32,604 nucleotides of DNA from Acidimicrobiales bacterium (GTDB lineage: Bacteria; Actinomycetota; Acidimicrobiia; Acidimicrobiales; GCA-2861595): contig DATAIT010000078.1 of the NCBI GenBank assembly GCA_036262515.1, forward strand, positions 1-32,604, read 5' to 3'. Shown here piece after piece: positions 20,781 through 31,541 of this stretch. Position 1 is the stretch's first letter. Each line of letters opens with the position of its first letter. The notes below the pieces were generated by a model. That model made no database searches. It saw nothing but the letters and a program-made list of their open reading frames with translations, and was not told the DNA's origin. A program made the position numbers and the translations under genes.

Positions 20781-21734
20781 CTACCTGCGGTCTTCCCGAC
20801 CGCGGTAGCGCGTCGCCACCCGGGCCGCCGCCTCCGCCGCCATCGCCGGATCGCCCCCCACGACGTCCGCCGCCGGTCCGAGACGAAGAAGCAGGCGTTC
20901 GAGCCACGCCCGCTCACTCACCCGCAGCCGCACCCGTCGCCGTCCGGAGGCAAGGTCCTCCGCCGCCTCGACCGGGTACTCCTCGGCCACCCAGCGGGCT
21001 TCCGGGGCCAGGTCGAGGACGACCACGGGGTCGTCGGGGCGCGGGTTGAACACGGGCGGCTGCACGGCGGAGGGCCGGGGCTCGAACCGGTCGTCCAGGA
21101 GGGTGGCCGAGCGCGTCCTGTCGACCCGGAAGACCCGGTCGGCCGTCGCCCGGTGGCACCACGCCGCCACGTACCACTGACCGGCGGCGTTGAACACCTG
21201 GTGGGGGTCGATCACCCGCCGGGCCCAGGCGTCGCGTCCGAACGAGTAGTAGTCGATCTCCACCTGGCGGCGCTCGGCCGACGCCTGCTGGAGGGCGGCG
21301 AGCACCTCGGGCGGAGCCGCCCCCAGCTCCACGCCCACCGCCTCGTCGGGGTCCACGCCGAGCACGGCCGCCACCTTGGCCAGGCCGCGCGCCAGCGGGC
21401 CCTCCGGATCGGTTCCCGGGACGGCGAGGAGCGCGTTGCCGGCGGCGACCAGGGCCAGCCCTTCGGCGGGCGTCAGGCGCAGCGGGCGGTCGAACCAGTC
21501 CGCGAACCGGATCCACACGCGCCCGTCCTCGACCGCGGCGTCGATGAGAGTGTCGGGGGTGAACGGGTGGACGCCGCAGAGGAAGAGCAGGCCCAGGTCC
21601 TCGACGACCTCGTCCTCGGTGCAGCCGAACCGCATGCACACGTCCTCGATGGCCGGACCGTCCTCGCCGGCGACCCACGGCACCATGGCCAGCAGGCGGC
21701 GCAGGCGGCGATCGGCCGGCGCGACGGGACTCAT
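20781..21734 (-). CDS. pafC: WYL-domain transcriptional regulator, PafC-like
   Basis: A 317-residue protein with an N-terminal winged-helix-like region (RRLRRLLAMVPWVAGEDGPAI), a central WYL domain (about 145-225, including VEIDYYSFGRD and QWYVAAWCHRATADRVFRVDR) and a WCX-type C-terminal domain. In mycobacteria PafB and PafC form a heterodimer that activates DNA-damage genes independently of LexA, with ligands sensed by the WYL domain. Here it is coupled to pafB by an ATGA overlap and followed 12 bases later by lepB. The assignment as C rests on order and on its divergent N-terminus. Confidence 0.88.
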   Translation of the reverse strand: MSPVAPADRRLRRLLAMVPWVAGEDGPAIEDVCMRFGCTEDEVVEDLGLLFLCGVHPFTPDTLIDAAVEDGRVWIRFADWFDRPLRLTPAEGLALVAAGNALLAVPGTDPEGPLARGLAKVAAVLGVDPDEAVGVELGAAPPEVLAALQQASAERRQVEIDYYSFGRDAWARRVIDPHQVFNAAGQWYVAAWCHRATADRVFRVDRTRSATLLDDRFEPRPSAVQPPVFNPRPDDPVVVLDLAPEARWVAEEYPVEAAEDLASGRRRVRLRVSERAWLERLLLRLGPAADVVGGDPAMAAEAAARVATRYRGREDRR

Positions 21735-22666
21735 CGGGTCACGAAAGCGTCGAGCCATGCGAGCATGTCCGCACGCACCTCCGACGGGCCGAGTACCTCG
21801 GCGTGGTCGAGGAACCCGAGGGCGAACGTGCGGAAGGCGGCCCTGTTCGTGACCGGCAGGGCGAGGACGACGGAGCCGTCGGGGCGCCGCTCCCGCACGG
21901 CCGCCCCTCCGGTGCGGGCCTCGGCCCATCCCGCCTGGTCGGCGTCGACCAGGAGCAGGGCCTCGACCTCCTCCTCGTCGCCCATGCGCCACGGGGCCGG
22001 CGCCGGACCGGGGCGGGCCGCCGGCCTCTCGAAGGCCTGGGGTGGGCCCGGTCGGGGGGCGGAGTCGATGCGGTCGAGCCGGAAGTTCCGGTCCTGCCCG
22101 CGGGCGTGGTCGTGGCCGATCAGGTACCAGTGGCCGCCGCTGTAGGAGAGGCGGTACGGATCGACCGTCCGCTCGGTGGAGCGGTAGCCGAACCGCACGG
22201 TGCGCCGCTCACCCAGCGCAGCGAAGAGCACGGGCAGGTGCTCGCTCCCGGGCAGGGCGGCCACCGGGGCGTCCCGGCCGGCCCGGCCGGTGGCCCCGCC
22301 GAGCTTCCAGATGGCGGTGGCCGCGTCCCCGGGCCCGTCGTCGCCCGCCGCCCCGAGGCGCACGGTGGACGCGGCCAGGTGCAGCGCTGCCAGCTCGTCG
22401 GGCGCCAGGTGCGGATCGGGCAGGCGGTACTGCTCGGGCGGGATGCGGTAGCCCTCGGCACCCTCGGCATGGTCGCCGTCGAGGGGCTCGAGCACCACGG
22501 GGATGCCCATGGCCCGGAGGGCGTCCTTGTCGCGTTCGAACGCCCGGCGGGCCGACTCGCCTTCGCCGTAGCCCGGAACCCGCCGCTGGATCTCCGCCCG
22601 GGAGAGGGGCCGGCCGGCGTCGAGCAGTGCGGCGACCAGGTTGAGCAGGCGTTCGAGCCGGTTCAC
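21731..22666 (-). CDS. pafB: WYL-domain transcriptional regulator, PafB-like
   Basis: A 311-residue partner of PafC. The N-terminal winged helix is clear (LERLLNLVAALLDAGRPLSRAEIQ, then RRAFERDKDALRAMGIPV). The WYL domain follows (about 165-230, TVRFGYRSTERTVDPYRLSY and HWYLIGHDH) and then the WCX domain. The GTG start at 22666 overlaps the DUF3866 stop by four bases (GTGA). TAGCGT lies seven bases before the start codon, within the end of the DUF3866 gene, so pafB may also be transcribed from its own leaderless promoter. Confidence 0.9.
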   Translation of the reverse strand: MNRLERLLNLVAALLDAGRPLSRAEIQRRVPGYGEGESARRAFERDKDALRAMGIPVVLEPLDGDHAEGAEGYRIPPEQYRLPDPHLAPDELAALHLAASTVRLGAAGDDGPGDAATAIWKLGGATGRAGRDAPVAALPGSEHLPVLFAALGERRTVRFGYRSTERTVDPYRLSYSGGHWYLIGHDHARGQDRNFRLDRIDSAPRPGPPQAFERPAARPGPAPAPWRMGDEEEVEALLLVDADQAGWAEARTGGAAVRERRPDGSVVLALPVTNRAAFRTFALGFLDHAEVLGPSEVRADMLAWLDAFVTR

Positions 22667-23679
22667 CCGCCCGACGCTACCGAGGCGGCCAGGACGCCGG
22701 CGGCGGCCGCGTAGGCGTGGAACCGGGGATCCTCGGCCGGCGTCCGGCTCATGCTGGTCACGGCCAGCCCAGCCGACCGGAGCAGGGCGACGACGTCGGG
22801 GATGTCGACGTCCACGACCTCGTGCCTGCCGGCGGCCGGGTGCGGCTCGCCCCGTGGGACGGCGACGAGGGCCTTCTCGCGCGCCAGCTCGAGCACGGTG
22901 GCCGAGTGGTGACTCAGCCCGTGGTGGCGGGCTCGGGTATCGGCGTCGGACCAGCGCAGGGCCACGATGACGTCGGCGTGACGGCGGGCGGCGGCATCGA
23001 TGAGCGAGGCCCCTTCGACCGCACCGTGGCCGTGCCGGGTGCCGGTGCCGACGATCCCCGGCCCGGGCGCCACGACCACGGCGTCGGCGCCGGCCACGGA
23101 CACGGCGACGTCGAGGCCGGACAGGGGGTTGACCGCCTCGTGGTCGCCGCCGAACGCCTGCCCCGCCGACACGGTGGCCGCCAGCAGATCCCGCTGACGC
23201 AGATCCGCCACCAGATCCGACAACGCGAGCGGCAGCGCGGCAGAGTCGGTCATCACGTGGACCAGCCGCCGGCCGGGAGCGGTCGCCGCGAAGGCGCAGG
23301 CGACGGCGGCCAGGTGGCTGTGCAGCGGGCACACCACGACGGGCACCCCGGCCAACGACCGGGGAGGGGCGTAGCCCTCGGCCTCCTCGGCGACCCCGGC
23401 GTCCACCTGGACGGAGGTGTACCGCACCTTCATCACATGCCCACCCCCGGGAAGGGAGAGCTCGGATCGCGACAGGTTCCAGTGCACCACGTCCCAGCCC
23501 CCGGTCCCCAGACCGAGGTCCACCGCGGTCGTGTTCACGACCACCGAGTCCCCGACGGCCACGGGCCCGACCAGATGCGTGAGCACGTACGCGCGCCGCC
23601 CGGAGTCGAGGGACACCCGCTGCAACCCGTCCCGTTGGGACACAAGCGCGGCGACAACGTGCGTCGAGAAGCTCGGCAC
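22663..23679 (-). CDS. DUF3866 family protein
   Basis: A 338-residue soluble protein of the actinobacterial DUF3866 family. Visible features are an N-terminal beta-rich part (SRRAYVLTHL-like, VAVGDSVVVNTTAVDLGLGTGGWDVVHWNL), the segment HVMKVRYTSVQVDAGVAEE near residue 80, and a Rossmann-like region with VVVAPGPGIVGTGTRHGHGAVEGA near residues 200-222. The biochemical role of the family is not known to me. It sits between pafA and pafB and overlaps pafB, so it is probably expressed with the pupylation and regulator genes. The GTG at 23679 has no strong ribosome site. Confidence 0.85.
   Translation of the reverse strand: MPSFSTHVVAALVSQRDGLQRVSLDSGRRAYVLTHLVGPVAVGDSVVVNTTAVDLGLGTGGWDVVHWNLSRSELSLPGGGHVMKVRYTSVQVDAGVAEEAEGYAPPRSLAGVPVVVCPLHSHLAAVACAFAATAPGRRLVHVMTDSAALPLALSDLVADLRQRDLLAATVSAGQAFGGDHEAVNPLSGLDVAVSVAGADAVVVAPGPGIVGTGTRHGHGAVEGASLIDAAARRHADVIVALRWSDADTRARHHGLSHHSATVLELAREKALVAVPRGEPHPAAGRHEVVDVDIPDVVALLRSAGLAVTSMSRTPAEDPRFHAYAAAAGVLAASVASGG
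22674..22679 (-). promoter_or_regulatory. Possible internal -10 element (TAGCGT) for pafB
   Basis: Minus-strand TAGCGT, a TANNNT hexamer, lies seven bases before the pafB GTG inside the last codons of the DUF3866 gene. No -35 is visible. Chance occurrence in coding sequence is possible. Confidence 0.3.
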
Positions 23680-23833: not shown

Positions 23834-25192
23834 TCACAGGGAGGCGATGAGCTTCTCGACGCGCTCGTCCTTGGCTTTGAACGGGTCCTTGCACAGCACC
23901 GTTCGCTGCGCCTGGTCGTTCAGCTTGAGGTGGACCCAGTCCACCGTGAAGTCGCGCCGCCGTTCCTTGGCCCGCTTGATGAACTCGCCCCGCAGCTTGG
24001 CGCGGGTGGTCTGCGGGGGCTCGTCGACGGCGGTGTTGATGGCCTCGTCGGTGCAGATGCGCTCCACCATGCCGCGCTGCTGCATCTTGTAGAACAGCCC
24101 GCGCTCCTGGGACACGTCGTGGTACTGGAGGTCCATCAGGGCGATCTTGGGATGGGTGAGCGGCACGCCGTGGCGGGCCTGGTAGCCGTCGAGGAGCTTG
24201 TACTTGATCACCCAGTCGCACTCCCGGTCGAGCGACATCGGATCCTTCTCCAGGCCGTTGAGGCAGTGCTCCCACATCATCAGGGCCTGCTCCTCGAGGG
24301 GGCTCAGCCCACGCTGGGCGTGGTACTTCTGGGCCCTCGTGAGGTACTCGGACTGGATGTCGATGGCGGTGACCTCGCGGCCGTTGGCCAGGCGGACCCG
24401 TCGTTTGCAGGTGGGATCGTGGCTGATCTCGCGTATGGCCCGGATCGGGTTCTCCAGGGTCATCTCCCGGAGCACCACGTTCGGGTCCTCCAGCATCCGC
24501 AGCATGATGCTGGTGGCGCCGACCTTCAGGAAGGTGGCGTACTCGCTCATGTTGGAATCGCCCACGATCACGTGGAGGCGCCGGAACCGCTCGGCGTCGG
24601 CATGGGGCTCGTCGCGCGTGTTGATGATGGGCCGGCTGCGGGTGGTGGCGCTGCTCACGCCCTCCCAGATGTGCTCGGCCCGCTGGGCCATGCAGTACAC
24701 CGCGCCCCGCGCCGTCTGCAGCACCTTCCCGGCGCCGGCGTAGATCTGGCGGGAGACGAAGAACGGGATCAGCACGTCGGCGTAGTGGCCGAAATCGTCC
24801 CGCCGGCTCGTCAGGTAGTTCTCGTGGCAGCCGTAGGAGTTGCCGGCCGAGTCCGTGTTGTTCTTGAACAGGTAGATGACCCCCCGGATGCCTTCCTCCC
24901 GGAGTCGCTGCTCGGCGCTGAGCAGCAGGTGCTCGAGGATCCGCTCCCCCGCCTTGTCGTGCACGACCAGGTCGTAGATCGAGTCGCACTCGGGCGTGGC
25001 GTACTCGGGATGGCTGCCCACGTCGAGGTAGAGGCGGGCCCCGTTCTCCAGGAAGACGTTGCTGCTGCGGCCCCAGCTGACCACCCGGCGGAACAGGTAG
25101 CGGGCGACCTCGTCGGGGCTCAGCCGGCGCTGCCCGCGGAGCGTGCAGGTGACGCCGTACTCGTTCTCGAGCCCGAAGATGCGTCGATCCAT
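23834..25192 (-). CDS. pafA: Pup-protein ligase PafA
   Basis: A 452-residue ligase, the same length as the mycobacterial enzyme. It phosphorylates the C-terminal glutamate of deamidated Pup with ATP and joins it to substrate lysines. The N-terminal metal-binding signature is [13 protein letters not shown] (Glu9), and the catalytic aspartate is Asp57 in [16 protein letters not shown]. The nucleotide-site motifs [17 protein letters not shown] and NTRDEPHAD are present. It lacks the extra loop near residue 40 that marks Dop. The ATG at 25192 gives the canonical N-terminus; no ribosome site is obvious. Transcribed after a 58-base gap that is divergent from the DUF2007 gene. Confidence 0.97.
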
Positions 25193-25250
25193 CGTGGGTG
25201 GGTGCCCCCCTGGCGAGCCGGGTGTGTCCTCCACGGTACCGTTCGCCTTC

Positions 25251-25580
25251 ATGGATGCGGGCCCGATGGTCCACCTCCGCTCGGTTGCCGACACGTTCCA
25301 CGCCCGGGTCATCGCCGCCAGGCTCGGCTCGGACGGCATCGTCACCGAGCTGCGGGGAGCGGTCGACGGCCCGTACCCCGGCCTCGGCGAGGTCCGCATC
25401 TACGTCGCCGCCGAGGACCTGGCCGTCGCCCGGGAGCTGCTGCTCGCCGACGAGGTGGAATCGGCCTTCGAGGACCCCGACGACCTCGACGCACCGGGCC
25501 GCAGGCGGGTGCTGCCGGCCTGGCTGGCCGTCGCGGTGCTCGTCGCCGTGGCCGCCGCTTGGCTGGCCCGGGCGTACTAG
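25251..25580 (+). CDS. DUF2007-like protein with C-terminal membrane anchor
   Basis: A 109-residue protein. Residues 10-75 look like the DUF2007 (putative signal-transducing) domain: a helix ([18 protein letters not shown]) followed by strands and [18 protein letters not shown]. Residues 90-107 are hydrophobic ([20 protein letters not shown]), giving a tail-anchored arrangement with the domain in the cytosol. The ATG at 25251 follows TACCGT by eight bases; a second ATG five codons later is possible. The gene is the only plus-strand gene in the proteasome locus, divergent from pafA and ending six bases from the prcA stop. Confidence 0.75.
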
Positions 25581-25586
25581 CGGGCG

Positions 25587-26354
25587 TCAGCCCGCAGGGG
25601 CGTCGCCGTTCGACCCGTCGGCGGCCGGCGGCGGTGCTTCGGGCGGCGTGCCCGGTGCGGAGGGCTCGGGACGTTCGAGCAGCGCGCCCAGCTCGGCGTC
25701 GACGATGCGGTGGAACGCCCGGCGTTCCCGGGGTCGCTCCAGTACCGCCGCCTCGAGGTCGGACGGCTGCAGCGTGCGCTCCGGGCCGGCCAGCGCGGCG
25801 ACAGCGGCCTCAAGGGCGTCGACCAGCGACCATCCCTCGGTGAAGGCCTCGGCCATGCGGTCGTGGATGGCGTCGGCCTCCCCGCCGAGGACGGCGAACT
25901 GGTCCTCGTCGTAGATCGTGCCGCTGAAGTCGATGTGGTACAGCTGATCGGAGCCCTCGCCGTTCTGGGGCCCGACCTCGGCGACGAGGATCTCGACCTC
26001 CATCGGCTTGATCTCGCGGGTGAACACCTGGCCGAGCCACTGGGCGTAGGCGTTGGCCAGCGACCGGGCGTCGACGTCCTCCCTGCTGTACTCGTAGCCC
26101 TTCACGTCGGCGTGACGGACCCCGCCCACCCGCAGCTGGTCGAACTCGTTGAACTTCCCGACGCCGGCGAAGGCGATGCGGTCGTAGATCTCGCTGATCT
26201 TGTGCAGGGTGCGGGACGGGTTCTCGGCCGCCAGCAGGATGCCGTCGGCGTAGGTGACGCCGATGAGGGAACGGCCGCGGGCGATGCCCTTGCGGGCATA
26301 GTCGGCCTTGTCCTTCATCATCTGCTCGGGGGCGACGTAGAACGGCATGCTCAT
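25587..26354 (-). CDS. prcA: 20S proteasome alpha subunit PrcA
   Basis: A 255-residue proteasome alpha subunit. The N-terminus MSMPFYVAPEQMMKDKADYARKG carries the gate-forming H0 region and the YARKGIARG motif of actinobacterial PrcA. No N-terminal threonine is expected in alpha subunits. The C-terminal 30 residues are a Pro/Ala/Glu tail ending GDAPAG. Seven-membered alpha rings cap the PrcB rings and dock ARC. The ATG at 26354 has AGGAG upstream at nine bases; an alternative ATG is two codons later. It follows prcB by 40 bases. Confidence 0.96.
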   Translation of the reverse strand: MSMPFYVAPEQMMKDKADYARKGIARGRSLIGVTYADGILLAAENPSRTLHKISEIYDRIAFAGVGKFNEFDQLRVGGVRHADVKGYEYSREDVDARSLANAYAQWLGQVFTREIKPMEVEILVAEVGPQNGEGSDQLYHIDFSGTIYDEDQFAVLGGEADAIHDRMAEAFTEGWSLVDALEAAVAALAGPERTLQPSDLEAAVLERPRERRAFHRIVDAELGALLERPEPSAPGTPPEAPPPAADGSNGDAPAG

Positions 26355-26394: not shown

Positions 26395-27189
26395 TCACGG
26401 GTGCATCCCCCGGTTGGTGCGGCGGTCGATGAGGGCGCCGAAGCGGGCGGCCACCTCCGACTCCGGCAGCCGGCTGAAGCCGGCCTGGGCGATGGTGGCG
26501 ATCACGGGGTAGATGCCGCGAACGGGATCGGGACCGCCTGTGGCGCTGTCCTCTTCGGCCGCCTCGTACAGGCTTTGGATGGCCAGCTCGACGGCGGCGT
26601 CGAGGTCCATGCCCTCCTTCCACCCGAGCTTGATGGTGGTGCGGGCGTCCCGCCCCCCCGAGCCGTCGGCGTGGTAGTCGGCCTCCTCGTAGCGGCCGCC
26701 GGTGACGTCGTAGGTGAAGATGCGGCCGCGGCGGCGGCGGAGGTCGTAGCCGGCGAAGATGGGGACGACGATCAGCCCCTGGAAGGCCATCGGCATGTTG
26801 GCCCGGATCATCCCCGCCAGCTGGTTGGCCTTGCCTTCGAGGCTGAGGGCGGCGCCCTCCACCTTCTCGTAGTGCTCCAGCTGGAGCTGGAAGAGCTTCA
26901 CCATCTCCATGGCCGGACCCGCCGCGCCGGCGATGGCCACGCCCGAGTGGCGGTCGGCCGGGTACACCTTCTCCATGTTGCGGTGGGCGATGGTGGAGCC
27001 GGCCGTGGCCCGGCGGTCGCCGGCCATCACCACGCCGTCGCCGTAGCGGATGGCGACGATGGTGGTGCCGTGGGTGATGGTGGCCGGATCGTCGACCGGG
27101 AACTGGTGGGGCCCGCCCCGCAGCCGGTGCAACAGGTTGGCGAAGCTCGGCCCCGGGTCGTCCGTCGGAGGGAAGAGCGGCAGGTTCAT
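26395..27189 (-). CDS. prcB: 20S proteasome beta subunit PrcB
   Basis: A 264-residue catalytic subunit made as a proprotein. Cleavage before Thr42 in THGTTIVAI exposes the nucleophile. Counting from it, the other catalytic residues fit exactly: Asp58 is position 17 (MAGDRR) and Lys74 is position 33 (NMEKVYP). The 41-residue propeptide is typical for actinobacteria. Beta rings form the proteolytic chamber. The gene starts 13 bases after the stop of the endonuclease VII-like gene, so the two are almost certainly on one transcript together with prcA. Confidence 0.97.
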   Translation of the reverse strand: MNLPLFPPTDDPGPSFANLLHRLRGGPHQFPVDDPATITHGTTIVAIRYGDGVVMAGDRRATAGSTIAHRNMEKVYPADRHSGVAIAGAAGPAMEMVKLFQLQLEHYEKVEGAALSLEGKANQLAGMIRANMPMAFQGLIVVPIFAGYDLRRRRGRIFTYDVTGGRYEEADYHADGSGGRDARTTIKLGWKEGMDLDAAVELAIQSLYEAAEEDSATGGPDPVRGIYPVIATIAQAGFSRLPESEVAARFGALIDRRTNRGMHP

Positions 27190-27202
27190 GGCCCGCCGGA
27201 GG

Positions 27203-27754
27203 CTAGTTGCTGGCTGCGCCCGCCGACATCGCCACGAGGTCGGTCAGCCGGGCCGTCAGCCGGTCTGCAAAGACGTACTCGGCGGCACGGCTGAGGAGTT
27301 CAGGCGAGTCCTCGAAGTCGCCGAGCGCGTTGTTGCACCGAAAGCACAGGAGCCCACGGATTCGGCCGCTTCCATGGTGGTGATCGACGTGAAGCGAGAT
27401 CCCCGGGGTCGGACGCCGCCCGCAGACAGCGCAGACGCCGGCCTGGGCGGCGAGAAGCTCGTCGTACCTCTCGGGCGTGATGCCATACGTGCGACGCAGG
27501 TACCCCGCTCGTTCCCGGAGCCGACCCTCGCGAGACTGCTTCATCCGGCGCTGGTTCGCCAGGTACTGCTCACGGTGCTCGTCGCGCCAACGCTTCGCTC
27601 GCTCGATCGACTGCTCCCGGACCTTCGGGTACCGCTCCTTGGCTCTGGTTCGAAAGCAGTCCTTACAGTCGCCCCGGAGGCCGTCGCGCCCGCCGGTGGC
27701 CTTGTAATAGTTCTCGAGGGGCTGGAGCACGCCGCACTTCGTGCACTTCTTCAT
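27203..27754 (-). CDS. Endonuclease VII-like HNH (beta-beta-alpha metal) nuclease inside the proteasome operon
   Basis: A 183-residue protein with two zinc modules. The N-terminal one is Cys4, Cys7, Cys30 and Cys33. A basic helical linker (34-100) follows. The nuclease domain has Cys108, Cys111, Cys137 and Cys140, with the active-site string HVDHHHGSGRIRGLLCFRCN (Asp124, His125, His127, Asn141). This matches the recombination endonuclease VII family, which in T4 resolves branched DNA. All catalytic positions are intact. It lies between pup and prcB, 13 bases before prcB. The ATG at 27754 is directly preceded by a promoter carrying a LexA box and has no proper ribosome site, so the transcript is predicted leaderless. 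Confidence 0.88.
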   Translation of the reverse strand: MKKCTKCGVLQPLENYYKATGGRDGLRGDCKDCFRTRAKERYPKVREQSIERAKRWRDEHREQYLANQRRMKQSREGRLRERAGYLRRTYGITPERYDELLAAQAGVCAVCGRRPTPGISLHVDHHHGSGRIRGLLCFRCNNALGDFEDSPELLSRAAEYVFADRLTARLTDLVAMSAGAASN

Positions 27755-27760
27755 GGCTCC

Positions 27761-27789
27761 ATTGTAGCGAACGTACGTTCGCTACACAA
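27761..27789 (-). promoter_or_regulatory. LexA (SOS) box within a consensus promoter driving endonuclease-prcB-prcA
   Basis: On the minus strand: -35 TTGTGT (27784-27789), 17-bp spacer, -10 TACAAT (27761-27766), six bases, then ATG. Positions 27763-27786 form a 24-bp perfect palindrome. Its core CGAACGTACGTTCG (27768-27781) matches the Gram-positive LexA consensus CGAACRNRYGTTYG at every defined position and the mycobacterial box TCGAAC-N4-GTTCGA in all but the outermost bases. The core lies entirely in the spacer, where LexA would block RNA polymerase. I saw no second such box in the window. Confidence 0.82.
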
Positions 27790-27825
27790 GGAGAATTGCC
27801 TGTCCAGAGGCTTGCTTGTACGAAA

Positions 27826-28023
27826 CTACTGGCCGCCCTTCTGCACGTACGAACGGACAAAGTCCTCGGCGTTCTCCTCGAGCACCTCGTCGATTTCGTC
27901 CAAAAGCTCGTCCAGCTCCGCCTTGATCTTGTCGCCCTGCTTGGAGTCAGCGGGCGCGGCCTCGTCGACCTCCTCGGCCTGCCGGGTGGTCGACTGCTTC
28001 TTCTTCTGCTCTCGCTCTGCCAT
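27826..28023 (-). CDS. pup: Prokaryotic ubiquitin-like protein Pup
   Basis: A 65-residue disordered tag protein. The C-terminus is KGGQ, so Dop must deamidate Gln65 to Glu before ligation. Residues 30-60 (DKIKAELDELLDEIDEVLEE then NAEDFVRSYVQ) form the helix that binds the ARC coiled coil, and the N-terminal part is charged and flexible as needed to start unfolding. The ATG at 28021-28023 has a GGAGG ribosome site nine bases upstream. It begins 14 bases after the dop stop, so the two are co-transcribed. Confidence 0.97.
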   Translation of the reverse strand: MAEREQKKKQSTTRQAEEVDEAAPADSKQGDKIKAELDELLDEIDEVLEENAEDFVRSYVQKGGQ

Positions 28024-28037
28024 CGCTCGCTGCCTCC

Positions 28038-29528
28038 TCAGGAGCCCAGCCGCTCCAACAGCTCGGCCGGGCTGGTACATCCATCCAACAACGTATCGAC
28101 CATCGAGGCCGTTCCTTTGAGCGGCTCCATCATCGGAACCCTGCGCAGCGGGTCGCCGCCCAGGTCGAAGACCAGTGAATCCCAGTTCGCCGCCGCGATG
28201 GAGGATCCCCAGCGCTGGAGGCACTTGCCCCGGAAGTACGCACGGGTGTCGCGAGGGGGCTCGGTGACCGCCTCTGCCACCGACGCCTCGGGGACGAGGC
28301 GCTCCATGCCGACCCTGGCGAACAGCGAACGGCCGGGTTCGAGCGAGTGGTACTGGAGATCCATGGCCGCCAGCTTGTGGTCCGACCAGGAGAGACCGTG
28401 GCGATCCCGGTAGCCGCTGACCAGCCGGTACTTGGCCACCCAGTCGAGCTGGTCGGCCAGCTCCATCGGGTCGCTCTCCAATCCGGTGAGCACCGCTTCC
28501 CACCGGCGCATCACCTCGGCGGCCACATCGGCGCCCAATGGCTCGAGGCCGCGGTCCTCGGCGTACTTGCGGGCCAGGTCGAAGTACTCCCACTGGATCT
28601 CCAGCGCCGTCATGCGCCGGCCGTCGGCCATCTCCACCGGCTCCCGTAGGCCGAGGTCGTAGGAGATCCGCCGCAAGGAGCGCACGGGGGTCGCGAAGGT
28701 GAAGTCCCGGTCCCCGAACCAGTCGTCCTCGATCATGCACAGCACGATCGACGTCACCCCGACCTTCAGCAGGTTGGCGACCTCCGACAGGTTGGCGTCG
28801 CCCACGATCACGTGGAGCCGCCGGTACTTCGACGCGTCGGCGTGAGGCTCGTCGCGGGTGTTGACGATCGGCCGCTTCAGCGTGGTCTCGAGGCCGACCT
28901 CCTCCTCGAAGAAGTCCGCCCGCTGGGTGAGCTGGAACGGGACGTCGACGCCACCGGTGGACGACGCCTCCGTCCCGACCTTGCCCGCCCCGCAGTAGAT
29001 CTGGCGGGTGACGAAGTGGGGCATCACGTGCTGCACGATCCGGCCGAACGGGGCCTGGCGGTCGACCAGGTAGTTCTCGTGGGTGCCGTACGAGTTGCCC
29101 TTGCGGTCGGAGTTGTTCTTGTACACGGCGATCGACTGCCCGGGCGGGAGGAGCCGGGCGGCGGCCTCCATCGAGCGGACGAGGATCAGCTCCCCCGCCT
29201 TGTCGTACCGGACGCACTCCAGGGCATCGGCACACTCGGGCGTCGAGAACTCGGGATGGGCATGGTCGACGTAGTAGCGGGAGCCGTTGGTGAGGACGGC
29301 ATTGACGAGGTGCGTCTCGACCTCGGGTGCGACCGTGCCCTCGCGGGCGAAGCCCCGAGCGTCGTTGCCGGGCGACTCGTCCTCGAAGTCCCACGCCACC
29401 TTGCGGGCCAGCTCGCTGACGTAGGCGTTGATGAGCACCGACGACGCCGCGATCGGGTTCGACTCCCCCGCGCCACGGTGCACGATCCCGTACTCCGTCT
29501 CCATGCCCACGACCTTGGCGATGGCCAC
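28038..29528 (-). CDS. dop: Pup deamidase/depupylase Dop
   Basis: A 496-residue paralogue of PafA that deamidates Pup and removes Pup from substrates. The metal-binding GMETEYG motif is at residues 8-14 (Glu10), and the catalytic Asp88 lies in YYVDHAHPEFSTPEC. Between them is the Dop-specific insertion (about residues 38-65, WDFEDESPGNDARGFAREG). The nucleotide motif KNNSDRKGNSYGTHENY and NTRDEPHAD are present. The GTG at 29528 is six bases after TAGGGT, so a leaderless transcript is likely. The 106-base gap from the arc stop shows nothing else. Confidence 0.97.
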   Translation of the reverse strand: MAIAKVVGMETEYGIVHRGAGESNPIAASSVLINAYVSELARKVAWDFEDESPGNDARGFAREGTVAPEVETHLVNAVLTNGSRYYVDHAHPEFSTPECADALECVRYDKAGELILVRSMEAAARLLPPGQSIAVYKNNSDRKGNSYGTHENYLVDRQAPFGRIVQHVMPHFVTRQIYCGAGKVGTEASSTGGVDVPFQLTQRADFFEEEVGLETTLKRPIVNTRDEPHADASKYRRLHVIVGDANLSEVANLLKVGVTSIVLCMIEDDWFGDRDFTFATPVRSLRRISYDLGLREPVEMADGRRMTALEIQWEYFDLARKYAEDRGLEPLGADVAAEVMRRWEAVLTGLESDPMELADQLDWVAKYRLVSGYRDRHGLSWSDHKLAAMDLQYHSLEPGRSLFARVGMERLVPEASVAEAVTEPPRDTRAYFRGKCLQRWGSSIAAANWDSLVFDLGGDPLRRVPMMEPLKGTASMVDTLLDGCTSPAELLERLGS

Positions 29529-29634: not shown

Positions 29635-31407
29635 CTACAGGTACTGGCCGGTGCCCACCCGCTCGATGGCCCGCCCGCCCGTGGGCTCGCCCTTGCCCTC
29701 CGTCATGAGCACCCGCAGGAAGACGATGCGCTCGCCCTTCTTGCCGGAGATCTTTGCCCAGTCGTCGGGGTTGGTGGAGTTGGGGAGGTCCTCGTGCTCC
29801 TTGTACTCCTGGCGGATCGACGCCGACAGGTCGGACATCCGGATCCCCCGCCCCTCGTCGGCGATGCGCCGCTTGATGGCCAGCTTCTTGGCCCGGCGCA
29901 CGATGTTCTCGATCATGGCTCCGGAGGCGAAGTCCTTGAAGTACATGACCTCCTTGTCGCCGTTCTGGTACGTGACCTCGATGAACCGGTTGTCGTCGTC
30001 CTGGCGGTACATCTCCTCGACGGTGCGCTCGATCATCACGCGCACGGCCTTGTCGGCATCACCGCCGCCGAGCCTGTCGACCTCGCCCTGGTCGAGCGGC
30101 AGGTCGGAGGTGAGGTAGCGGGCGAAGATCTGGGTGGCGGCCTGCTCGTTGGGCCGCTCGATCTTGATCTTCACGTCGAGGCGACCCGGGCGCAGGATGG
30201 CGGGATCGATGAGGTCCTCGCGGTTGGAGGCGCCGATGACGATCACGTTCTTCAGCGTCTCCACGCCGTCGATCTCGGCCAGCAGCTGCGGGACGATGGT
30301 GGACTCCATGTCCGAGGAGATCCCGGTTCCCCGAGTGCGGAACAGCGAGTCCATCTCGTCGAAGAACACGATGACGGGCATGCCCTCCTCGGACTTCTCC
30401 CGGGCCCGCTGGAACACCAGACGGATCTGGCGTTCGGTCTCCCCGACGTACTTGTTGAGCAGCTCGGGGCCCTTGATGTTGAGGAAGTAGCTCTTGGCGT
30501 TCTTGTCGCCCGTGACCTCGCCGACCTTCTTGGCCAGCGAGTTGGCCACCGCCTTGGCGATCAGCGTCTTGCCGCAACCAGGTGGGCCGTAGAGCAGGAT
30601 CCCCTTCGGTGCCGGGAGCTTGTGCTCGATGAACAGGTCCCGGTGGACGAACGGGAGCTCGACGGCGTCGGTGATGGCCTCGATCTGCTCGTCGAGGCCA
30701 CCGACGTCGGCGTAGGAGATGTCGGGGACCTCCTCCAGGATGAGCTCTTCCACCTCGGGCCGGGGCAGGCGCTCGAGGAGCATGCCGGTGCGGCTGTCCA
30801 TGAGGACGGTGTCGCCGGCCCGCAGGAATGTGCCCTCGAGCTCCTCGGTGAGCTCGACCACGCGCTCCTCGTCGGCCCGTCCCACGATGAGGGCCCGCTT
30901 CCCGCCGTCGAGCAGCTCCTTCAGGGTGACGACCTCGCCCGCCACCTCCTGGCTGCGCGCCAGCACGACGTTGAGCGACTCGTTGAGGACGACCTCCTGG
31001 CCTCGCTTCAGATCGTCGATCTCGATCTCGGGATGGAGGGCGACGCGCATCTTGCGGCCGCCGGAGAACACGTCGACCGTGCCGTCGTCGTTCGTGCCCA
31101 GGTAGGTGCCGTAGGCGGACGGCGGCTGGGTGAGCTTGTCGACCTCCTCGCGCAGGGCGGCGATGTGCTCGCGCGCCTCGCGGAGGGTGTAGGTGAGCTT
31201 CTCGTTCTGGGAGACGGCCTGGGCCAGCTGCCCCTTGGTCTCGAGCAGCTTCTCCTCCAGGGTGCGGACGCGCTTGGGCGCATCGTGCAGCCGGCGTCGG
31301 AGGGTGACGATCTCCTCCTCGAGCACCTTCACCTGCTCCGTCAGCTCCGTCGCTTCCAACCTGTCGGCGCTGGCCCTGCCCTGCTCCTCGGAGTCCGTCG
31401 CAACCAC
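29635..31407 (-). CDS. arc: Proteasome-associated AAA ATPase ARC/Mpa
   Basis: A hexameric unfoldase that recognises Pup and drives substrates into the proteasome. With the GTG at 31407 it has 590 residues: a coiled coil (about 15-95), two OB domains (about 100-230) and one AAA domain with Walker A GPPGCGKT (Lys280) and Walker B VFFDEMDS. The C-terminus GQYL is the penultimate-tyrosine motif that docks in the alpha ring. The start is uncertain: the frame stays open to a TTG at 31506 (623 residues) and has another GTG at 31428. I prefer 31407 for its GAAGG sequence upstream and because the N-terminus then matches the mycobacterial length before the coiled coil. Confidence 0.95.
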
Positions 31408-31493
31408 CTCCCTTCGGCGACCATACACGTCTGCCGCGGCTGTGGACGTCGATCGTGCGGCGGGTTTTCCTCGCCGATCCCGTGGAAACTCGC

Positions 31494-31499
31494 TATGCT
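31494..31499 (+). promoter_or_regulatory. Possible -10 element (TATGCT) for the ferredoxin gene
   Basis: TATGCT is five sixths of a TATAAT-like pattern with the required TA and final T. It gives a leader of about 36 bases that includes GAGGGAAGGG. No convincing -35 is seen. Confidence 0.35.
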
Positions 31500-31541
31500 C
31501 GGACAACCGGGGCTACACGCCCGAGGGAAGGGCTTGACGAC

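Follow-up and report, generated by a model that had tools for sequence, protein, structure and literature searches.

We analyzed a window of 32,604 nucleotides, positions 1 to 32,604 of contig DATAIT010000078.1 from an Acidimicrobiales bacterium, which was found to contain a complete Pup-proteasome locus with the gene order ATPase, dop, pup, nuclease, prcB, prcA and pafA, and with pafBC farther down (Table 1). The order dop-pup-prcB-prcA-pafA is the same as that of the standard locus; text searches of two reviews of the Pup-proteasome system (PMC3511204 and PMC8223512) showed pup directly upstream of prcB and revealed no endonuclease. In the window, the position between pup and prcB (hereafter the slot) is occupied by the nuclease gene, the stop codon of which lies 13 nt from the prcB ATG. 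Among the papers readable without a subscription, we found no description of a nuclease between pup and prcB. No phage genes were present beside the slot nuclease. A DUF3866 protein is encoded between pafA and pafBC (window 22663-23679, minus strand). By eye, the pup-prcB gap of other genomes contained different frames, namely a Tat-signal protein in one locus (L040, genome G010) and DapD-like and Nudix-like frames on the opposite strand in another (L043, genome G021).

Table 1. Positions of genes and sequence elements in the window, listed along the direction of transcription
Feature	Position	Strand	Basis or remark
mpa/arc proteasome ATPase	29635..31506	-	TIGR03689
dop (depupylase)	28038..29528	-	TIGR03688
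pup, 65 aa, ends GGQ	27826..28023	-	PF05639, 77 bits
pup 3' tail, last 22 codons	27829..27894	-	In relatives swapped with the nuclease and synonymously recoded
TTTCGTACAA, directly 3' of pup stop	27816..27825	-	
-35 element TTGTGT of nuclease promoter	27784..27789	-	Sequence; sister loci share layout
LexA (SOS) box, perfect palindrome AGCGAACGTACGTTCGCT, fills predicted -35/-10 spacer	27766..27783	.	
-10 element TACAAT, 6 nt upstream of ATG	27761..27766	-	TANNNT-N6-ATG/GTG in most sister loci
Slot nuclease gene, EndoVII/DHHRN-type, 183 aa	27203..27754	-	PF02945, PHROG, AlphaFold2
N-terminal CxxC...CxxC zinc knuckle, C4/C7/C30/C33	27656..27745	-	Resembles Hpy99I residues 65-106
EndoVII catalytic domain, C-terminal half of protein	27272..27499	-	Domain coordinates; invariant columns
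TAGCCT, putative prcB -10, overlaps nuclease stop codon	27200..27205	-	Nuclease-free loci have a similar TANNNT ahead of prcB
prcB (20S proteasome beta)	26395..27189	-	TIGR03690
prcA (20S proteasome alpha)	25587..26354	-	TIGR03691
pafA (Pup ligase)	23834..25399	-	TIGR03686
Second WYL match, likely pafB	22058-22243		
pafC (HTH_PafC + WYL)	20781..21992	-	

A profile search with PF02945 matched the slot nuclease at 82.2 bits (cut-off 23.6), and this was the sole PF02945 match in the whole genome; the PHROG family annotated as endonuclease VII was matched at 132 bits. The PF02945 domain spans residues 86-161 of the protein, with an N-terminal extension preceding the EndoVII motif. The zinc cysteines of the motif (C108/C111/C137/C140), those of the N-terminal zinc knuckle (C4/C7/C30/C33) and the catalytic residues (D124-H125-x-H127, R133 and N141) are all intact, and an alignment revealed that they were invariant across 34 slot relatives. 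The original prediction of an intact endonuclease VII-like gene, tightly spaced to prcB, was borne out, and the loss of active-site residues in close relatives, which it had named as a possible argument against itself, was not seen among these 34 proteins. Slot nucleases are under purifying selection, with a median dN/dS of 0.14 and complete cores in 82 of 84 proteins.

The AlphaFold2 model of the slot nuclease showed a mean pLDDT of 95, and its best relatives in the PDB were Hpy99I and T4 endonuclease VII, although the structural scores were modest. Hpy99I (3fc3) was the best match by both sequence and Foldseek; both proteins contain an N-terminal zinc knuckle and a beta-beta-alpha-Me domain, but the slot nuclease has no methylase partner. 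T4 endonuclease VII (1en7 and 1e7l) is similar in its catalytic domain, with a VIA Z of 4.4 and an rmsd of 3.7 over 57 residues. In T4 endonuclease VII, however, the motif is N-terminal and the dimer part C-terminal, and this order is reversed in the slot nuclease. Assignment as a T4-type Holliday junction resolvase, which is characterized by an N-terminal motif and a C-terminal dimer/DNA part, was rejected on this ground. A type II restriction-modification system of the Hpy99I kind was also rejected, as the immediate neighbours are Pup-proteasome genes and a methyltransferase is absent. PADLOC returned a weak type II restriction match for the nuclease, and neither a methylase nor an immunity gene was found among the operon genes examined.

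The residues of the slot nuclease (D-H-x-H...R...N with CxxC/CxxC) are those of DHHRN/EndoVII-type homing endonucleases, and its architecture, in which the motif lies C-terminal behind an N-terminal extension, is also that of this family (PMC6083498). F-CphI from cyanophage S-PM2 is a proven homing endonuclease with an EndoVII catalytic motif (PMC6083498). The two proteins share the D, H, H, R and N residues, the CxxC...CxxC zinc site and a motif that follows an N-terminal extension and lies in the C-terminal half, and both are encoded by a free-standing gene adjoining a conserved gene. In contrast, F-CphI is a phage gene paired with a group I intron, which blocks self-cutting, whereas the slot nuclease is chromosomal and no intron was evident.

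On the minus strand, the region of the nuclease start reads TTGTGT-AGCGAACGTACGTTCGC-TACAAT-GGAGCC-ATG, in which the 17-base spacer is filled by a perfect LexA palindrome. In a sigma-70 consensus scan of positions 27100-28100, no promoter reached the threshold, as TTGTGT and TACAAT together fell too far short of the scan's thresholds; the promoter call therefore rests on the layout common to the sister loci, which recurs although the nucleases there are only ~45-70% identical. Because the -10 element ends 6 bases before the ATG, transcription is predicted to start at the start codon or immediately beside it, and the nuclease transcript is predicted to be leaderless and SOS-controlled. The sequence CGAACGTACGTTCG at positions 27768-27781 is the sole exact copy within the window. 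Throughout the genome, CGAAC-N4-GTTCG occurred at 18 sites, compared with 2 for the reversed control, and by eye some of these sites precede lexA (two boxes), recA, ruvC and a DNA polymerase IV gene. The predicted box in the nuclease promoter is thus accompanied by boxes at lexA and recA of the same genome, as would be expected for a member of the LexA regulon. Between pup and the nuclease, GAAC-N4-GTTC was present in 8 of 19 nuclease loci of the order (0.02 expected from shuffles) and in none of 48 nuclease-free loci, and the SOS promoter that had been proposed originally was upheld by these counts. The combined LexA/-10/ATG pattern gave no match in the six genomes searched, two of which were unintended choices. 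The idea that the SOS promoter induces prcBA was not favoured, as prcB seems to own a -10 element; read-through is possible.

A few relatives appear to use a different element. The motif TGTCACAC-N8-TANNNT was found exactly at the nuclease in genomes G219 and G484 and with one mismatch in G288. It occurred 41 times in five genomes (reversed control, 0), and by eye it lies upstream of recA and of radA-, sbcD- and recQ-like genes. We take it to resemble the mycobacterial PafBC/RecA-NDp promoter, TTGTCRGTG-N8-TANNNT, and this resemblance points to a probable PafBC-type promoter that responds to damage; with its position before DNA-repair-like genes, the motif is likely such a promoter outside mycobacteria. 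At recA of the window's genome (G000:C72:41066-41133; also L120 and L153), a LexA box is followed 33 bases on by TGTCACAC-N8-TANNNT.

This type of regulation raises the possibility that the gene encodes a host repair nuclease of the SOS regulon, a reading that we consider unlikely. As a structure-specific enzyme of the EndoVII type, it would cleave branched or mismatched DNA after damage, and the place in the operon would then be explained by a need for pupylation-dependent removal of the nuclease, or of RecA-type partners, afterwards. Such a role is favoured by the LexA box common to lexA, recA and ruvC, by the PafBC-type promoter that some relatives have instead, by the purifying selection on the nuclease and by the presence of pafBC in the same locus, and also by the pupylation of RecA and further damage-response proteins in mycobacteria (PMC8223512). 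It is opposed by the C-terminal position of the motif, as in homing and restriction members of the family rather than the N-terminal position in the T4 resolvase (PMC6083498), and no damage promoter was seen in the slot loci of genus g233, which the N-terminus of PrcB suggests is probably Streptomyces. The frequent decay and loss of the nuclease and its exchange, together with the pup tail, among close relatives, both presented below, also speak against it.

The distribution of the slot nuclease differs from that of its neighbours. Whereas pup was near universal among the relatives searched (57 of 59), PF02945 was detected in only 24 of 397 genomes of the order, in 18 of which the gene lies directly after pup. 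In a phylum sample of 396 genomes, a strong PF02945 match (E<=1e-16) was found in 22, and in 19 of the 22 it was located between pup and prcB; these slot occurrences were spread over several families. In g233, approximately 64 of 150 genomes have a slot nuclease, and 149 of 150 have pup. The suggestion in the original prediction, offered there tentatively, that endonuclease VII-like genes occur near pup-prcB in other actinobacteria was thus correct. In two families (f67 and f99; loci L090, L094, L095, L097, L098 and L101), the slot holds two EndoVII genes in tandem, apparently from an old duplication, and the copies form two sub-groups in the tree.

In g233, the 3' end of the nuclease gene overlaps the first ~16 prcB codons in a different frame, and the likely prcB ribosome-binding site is located inside the nuclease gene. 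Among 40 nuclease-negative loci of g233, relics with frameshifts or truncations that reach past this overlap persist in at least 28, and decayed or lost copies accounted for about half of the g233 loci examined. The conserved C-terminal peptide WKPTLVAPGVYQLPS of dead g233 loci was considered as a functional relic and rejected, because it overlaps the first prcB codons in the other frame and its wobble positions vary in loci that lost the nuclease long ago; the relic counts were therefore limited to matches reaching beyond the overlap. Truncated or stop-interrupted copies were also seen in the slots of L104 (G547), L069 (G050) and L083 (G144).

A tree that included 72 viral relatives placed the slot nucleases of g233 and others from outside the window's order in one virus-free group, and those of the window's order in a near-group that also includes two viral sequences. 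Upon constraining all full slot nucleases to one clade, we obtained a log-likelihood 54 units above that of the free search and a p-AU of 0.917, so placing the slot nucleases in a single clade is acceptable. In the tree, the nucleases on viral contigs L338 and L341 are interspersed with slot nucleases from the window's order, and these contigs are possible phage carriers.

We found that the nuclease is exchanged between otherwise very similar loci. In four g233 pairs, dop, prcB and prcA were ~97-99% identical and the DNA of the nuclease region was ~55-65% identical; between the window's genome and a genus-mate, the identity was 94% for PrcB and 49% for the nuclease. The left border of the exchange lies inside pup, where the last 30-90 bases carry many synonymous changes with the protein almost unchanged. 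The exchanged unit thus consists of the nuclease and the last ~20-26 pup codons, and the rest of the locus is host-like. Among 57 intact loci, the nuclease distance and the codon difference in the pup tail were nearly flat against prcB distance, whereas the pup head scaled with it. Partial Mantel tests revealed that the pup tail followed the nuclease when prcB was controlled for (0.264, p 0.001) and not prcB when the nuclease was controlled for (0.045, p 0.13), in sharp contrast to the pup head, which followed prcB (0.557, p 0.001) and not the nuclease (-0.09). By these tests, the pup tail belongs with the nuclease and the remainder of pup with the host. In three near-identical g233 pairs, the last residue of Pup flipped between Glu and Gln with the nuclease allele; such flips were seen, for example, between L091 and L167, L191 and L196, and L177 and L201. 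A Pup that ends in Gln needs deamidation by Dop. Directly behind the stop codon of pup, CGTNCAA was present in 7 of the 19 nuclease loci compared with 0 of 48 nuclease-free loci. This motif reads Tyr/Phe-Val-Gln, as at the pup end, and may be what is left of a displaced pup tail, or else a protein site.

The pup tail is not only exchanged but also recoded. In g233, the fraction of A/T-ending codons among the last 22 pup codons was 0.368 in loci with an intact nuclease, 0.170 in those with relics and 0.149 in those without the gene, with 0.07-0.10 in the pup head and 0.05-0.08 in prcB; recoding accompanies the intact nuclease and relaxes after its decay. The tail exceeded the head in 56 of 57 intact loci. 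A general gene-end effect was rejected, as the ends of dop (0.095), prcB (0.100) and prcA (0.136) displayed no comparable rise. A/T-ending codons were also more frequent in the tail than in the nuclease (0.23), and the two values were uncorrelated (rho 0.02), so foreign composition alone does not account for the recoding. For loci of the window's order, the tail value was 0.273 with the nuclease, compared with 0.093 for nuclease-free loci matched in GC (p 5e-5). In the window itself, the pup tail (0.09) has no strong A/T recoding; it differs synonymously from that of the genus-mate.

Taken together, these results do not support functional integration with protein degradation, which the original prediction had preferred, as the main reading, because the gene is sporadic, often decayed and exchanged independently of its neighbours. 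The sporadic occurrence and phylogenetic decoupling from the neighbours are the pattern that the prediction had itself named as contradicting integration; the exchanged unit, moreover, carries a recoded pup 3' end, and prcB appears to have retained a -10 element of its own. In the sampled genomes, the nuclease does not behave as a partner of the Pup-proteasome, as pup is near universal and the nuclease is sporadic and decoupled from prcB. The mobile HNH-type gene that had been offered as the alternative fits better. The neighbouring Pup-proteasome genes appear to be a landing site, and the nuclease appears to have hosts, not partners, in prcBA and pupylation.

Judging from sequence comparisons, we consider it reasonably probable that the slot nuclease is an EndoVII-type (DHHRN) homing enzyme whose free-standing gene resides at the pup 3' end. 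Free-standing homing endonucleases have been described mainly from phages. Such a gene is flanked by two conserved genes, one of which its product cuts (PMC6083498), and the slot nuclease is likewise an optional gene between two conserved genes, present or absent among relatives. T4-type phages provide well-documented cases of co-conversion of flanking sequence (PMC2988022), and here the pup tail travels with the nuclease, an observation with which ordinary recombination is also compatible. The T4-type genes SegF, SegG and MobE (PMC2988022) are similar to the slot nuclease in being optional genes between conserved genes, with flank co-conversion and a sporadic distribution, but they have GIY-YIG or HNH catalytic domains and belong to lytic phages.

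According to this proposal, the nuclease would recognise and cut the conserved pup 3' end in alleles without its own version, and repair from the nuclease-bearing allele would copy the cassette in, co-converting pup. The recoded tail would shield the resident copy from cutting; in this respect, and in its LexA control, the slot nuclease may differ from F-CphI. Until DNA damage occurs, the nuclease would be kept silent in the window's genome and order by LexA or, in a small number of relatives, by a PafBC-type promoter, and expression timed in this manner would coincide with induction of the recombination proteins needed for homing. We found no precedent for a LexA-controlled chromosomal homing endonuclease, and to our knowledge no host stress promoter is known for SegF, SegG or MobE. 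More tentatively, and at somewhat lower confidence than an even balance, the homing proposal may be extended to a "home-and-rescue" drive, in which each invasion repairs the broken pup with a recoded, uncuttable tail and alleles repeatedly re-invade each other, the process being fired in Acidimicrobiia-type bacteria by the SOS or PafBC damage response, at a time when recombination is on hand.

Several observations weigh against homing or admit another cause. Ordinary homologous recombination with diversifying selection could act as the cassette exchanger, and phylum-wide persistence and low dN/dS equally suit a useful host gene. A rival reading, which seems to us rather improbable, is a diversifying nuclease of defence or competition, in which restriction-like alleles target different foreign DNA, undergo ordinary recombination through the conserved pup and prcB arms and are held diverse by frequency-dependent selection. 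The high allelic diversity on near-identical backgrounds is consistent with it, as are the nearest solved relative, the restriction enzyme Hpy99I, and the PADLOC match, although the operon genes examined lack a methylase or immunity gene. By itself, it leaves unexplained why the synonymous codons of the pup tail track the nuclease and relax upon its death.

The codon evidence has a rival cause as well. The A/T-richness of the pup tail may stem from the open mRNA needed for translation of the nuclease, and the window's own tail is not A/T-rich. In g233, the nuclease starts right after pup, where such a need would apply at least; coupling to pup translation is a weaker explanation in the window's order, because the nuclease there mostly has its own promoter after pup. 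Combined with passive recombination of a neutral, prophage-derived nuclease, this open-mRNA need would account for the recoded tail, and the many related genes in phage genomes favour such an origin, but we regard that combination as very improbable. The gene occupies the same slot across the phylum, its dN/dS is low and no phage genes adjoin it, and the tail is recoded in the window's order although most nuclease genes there have a leaderless promoter of their own, located downstream of pup.

Homing at the pup 3' end, if true, would make the slot nuclease a phylum-wide chromosomal homing gene on the gene of a ubiquitin-like tag, and would show in what way such elements can last over very long periods in bacteria. 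Self-cutting would be avoided through synonymous recoding of the host gene, and DNA-damage control would be linked to homing. For the host, a cassette swap can alter the last residue of Pup between Glu and Gln, which decides whether Dop is needed before Pup can be used.
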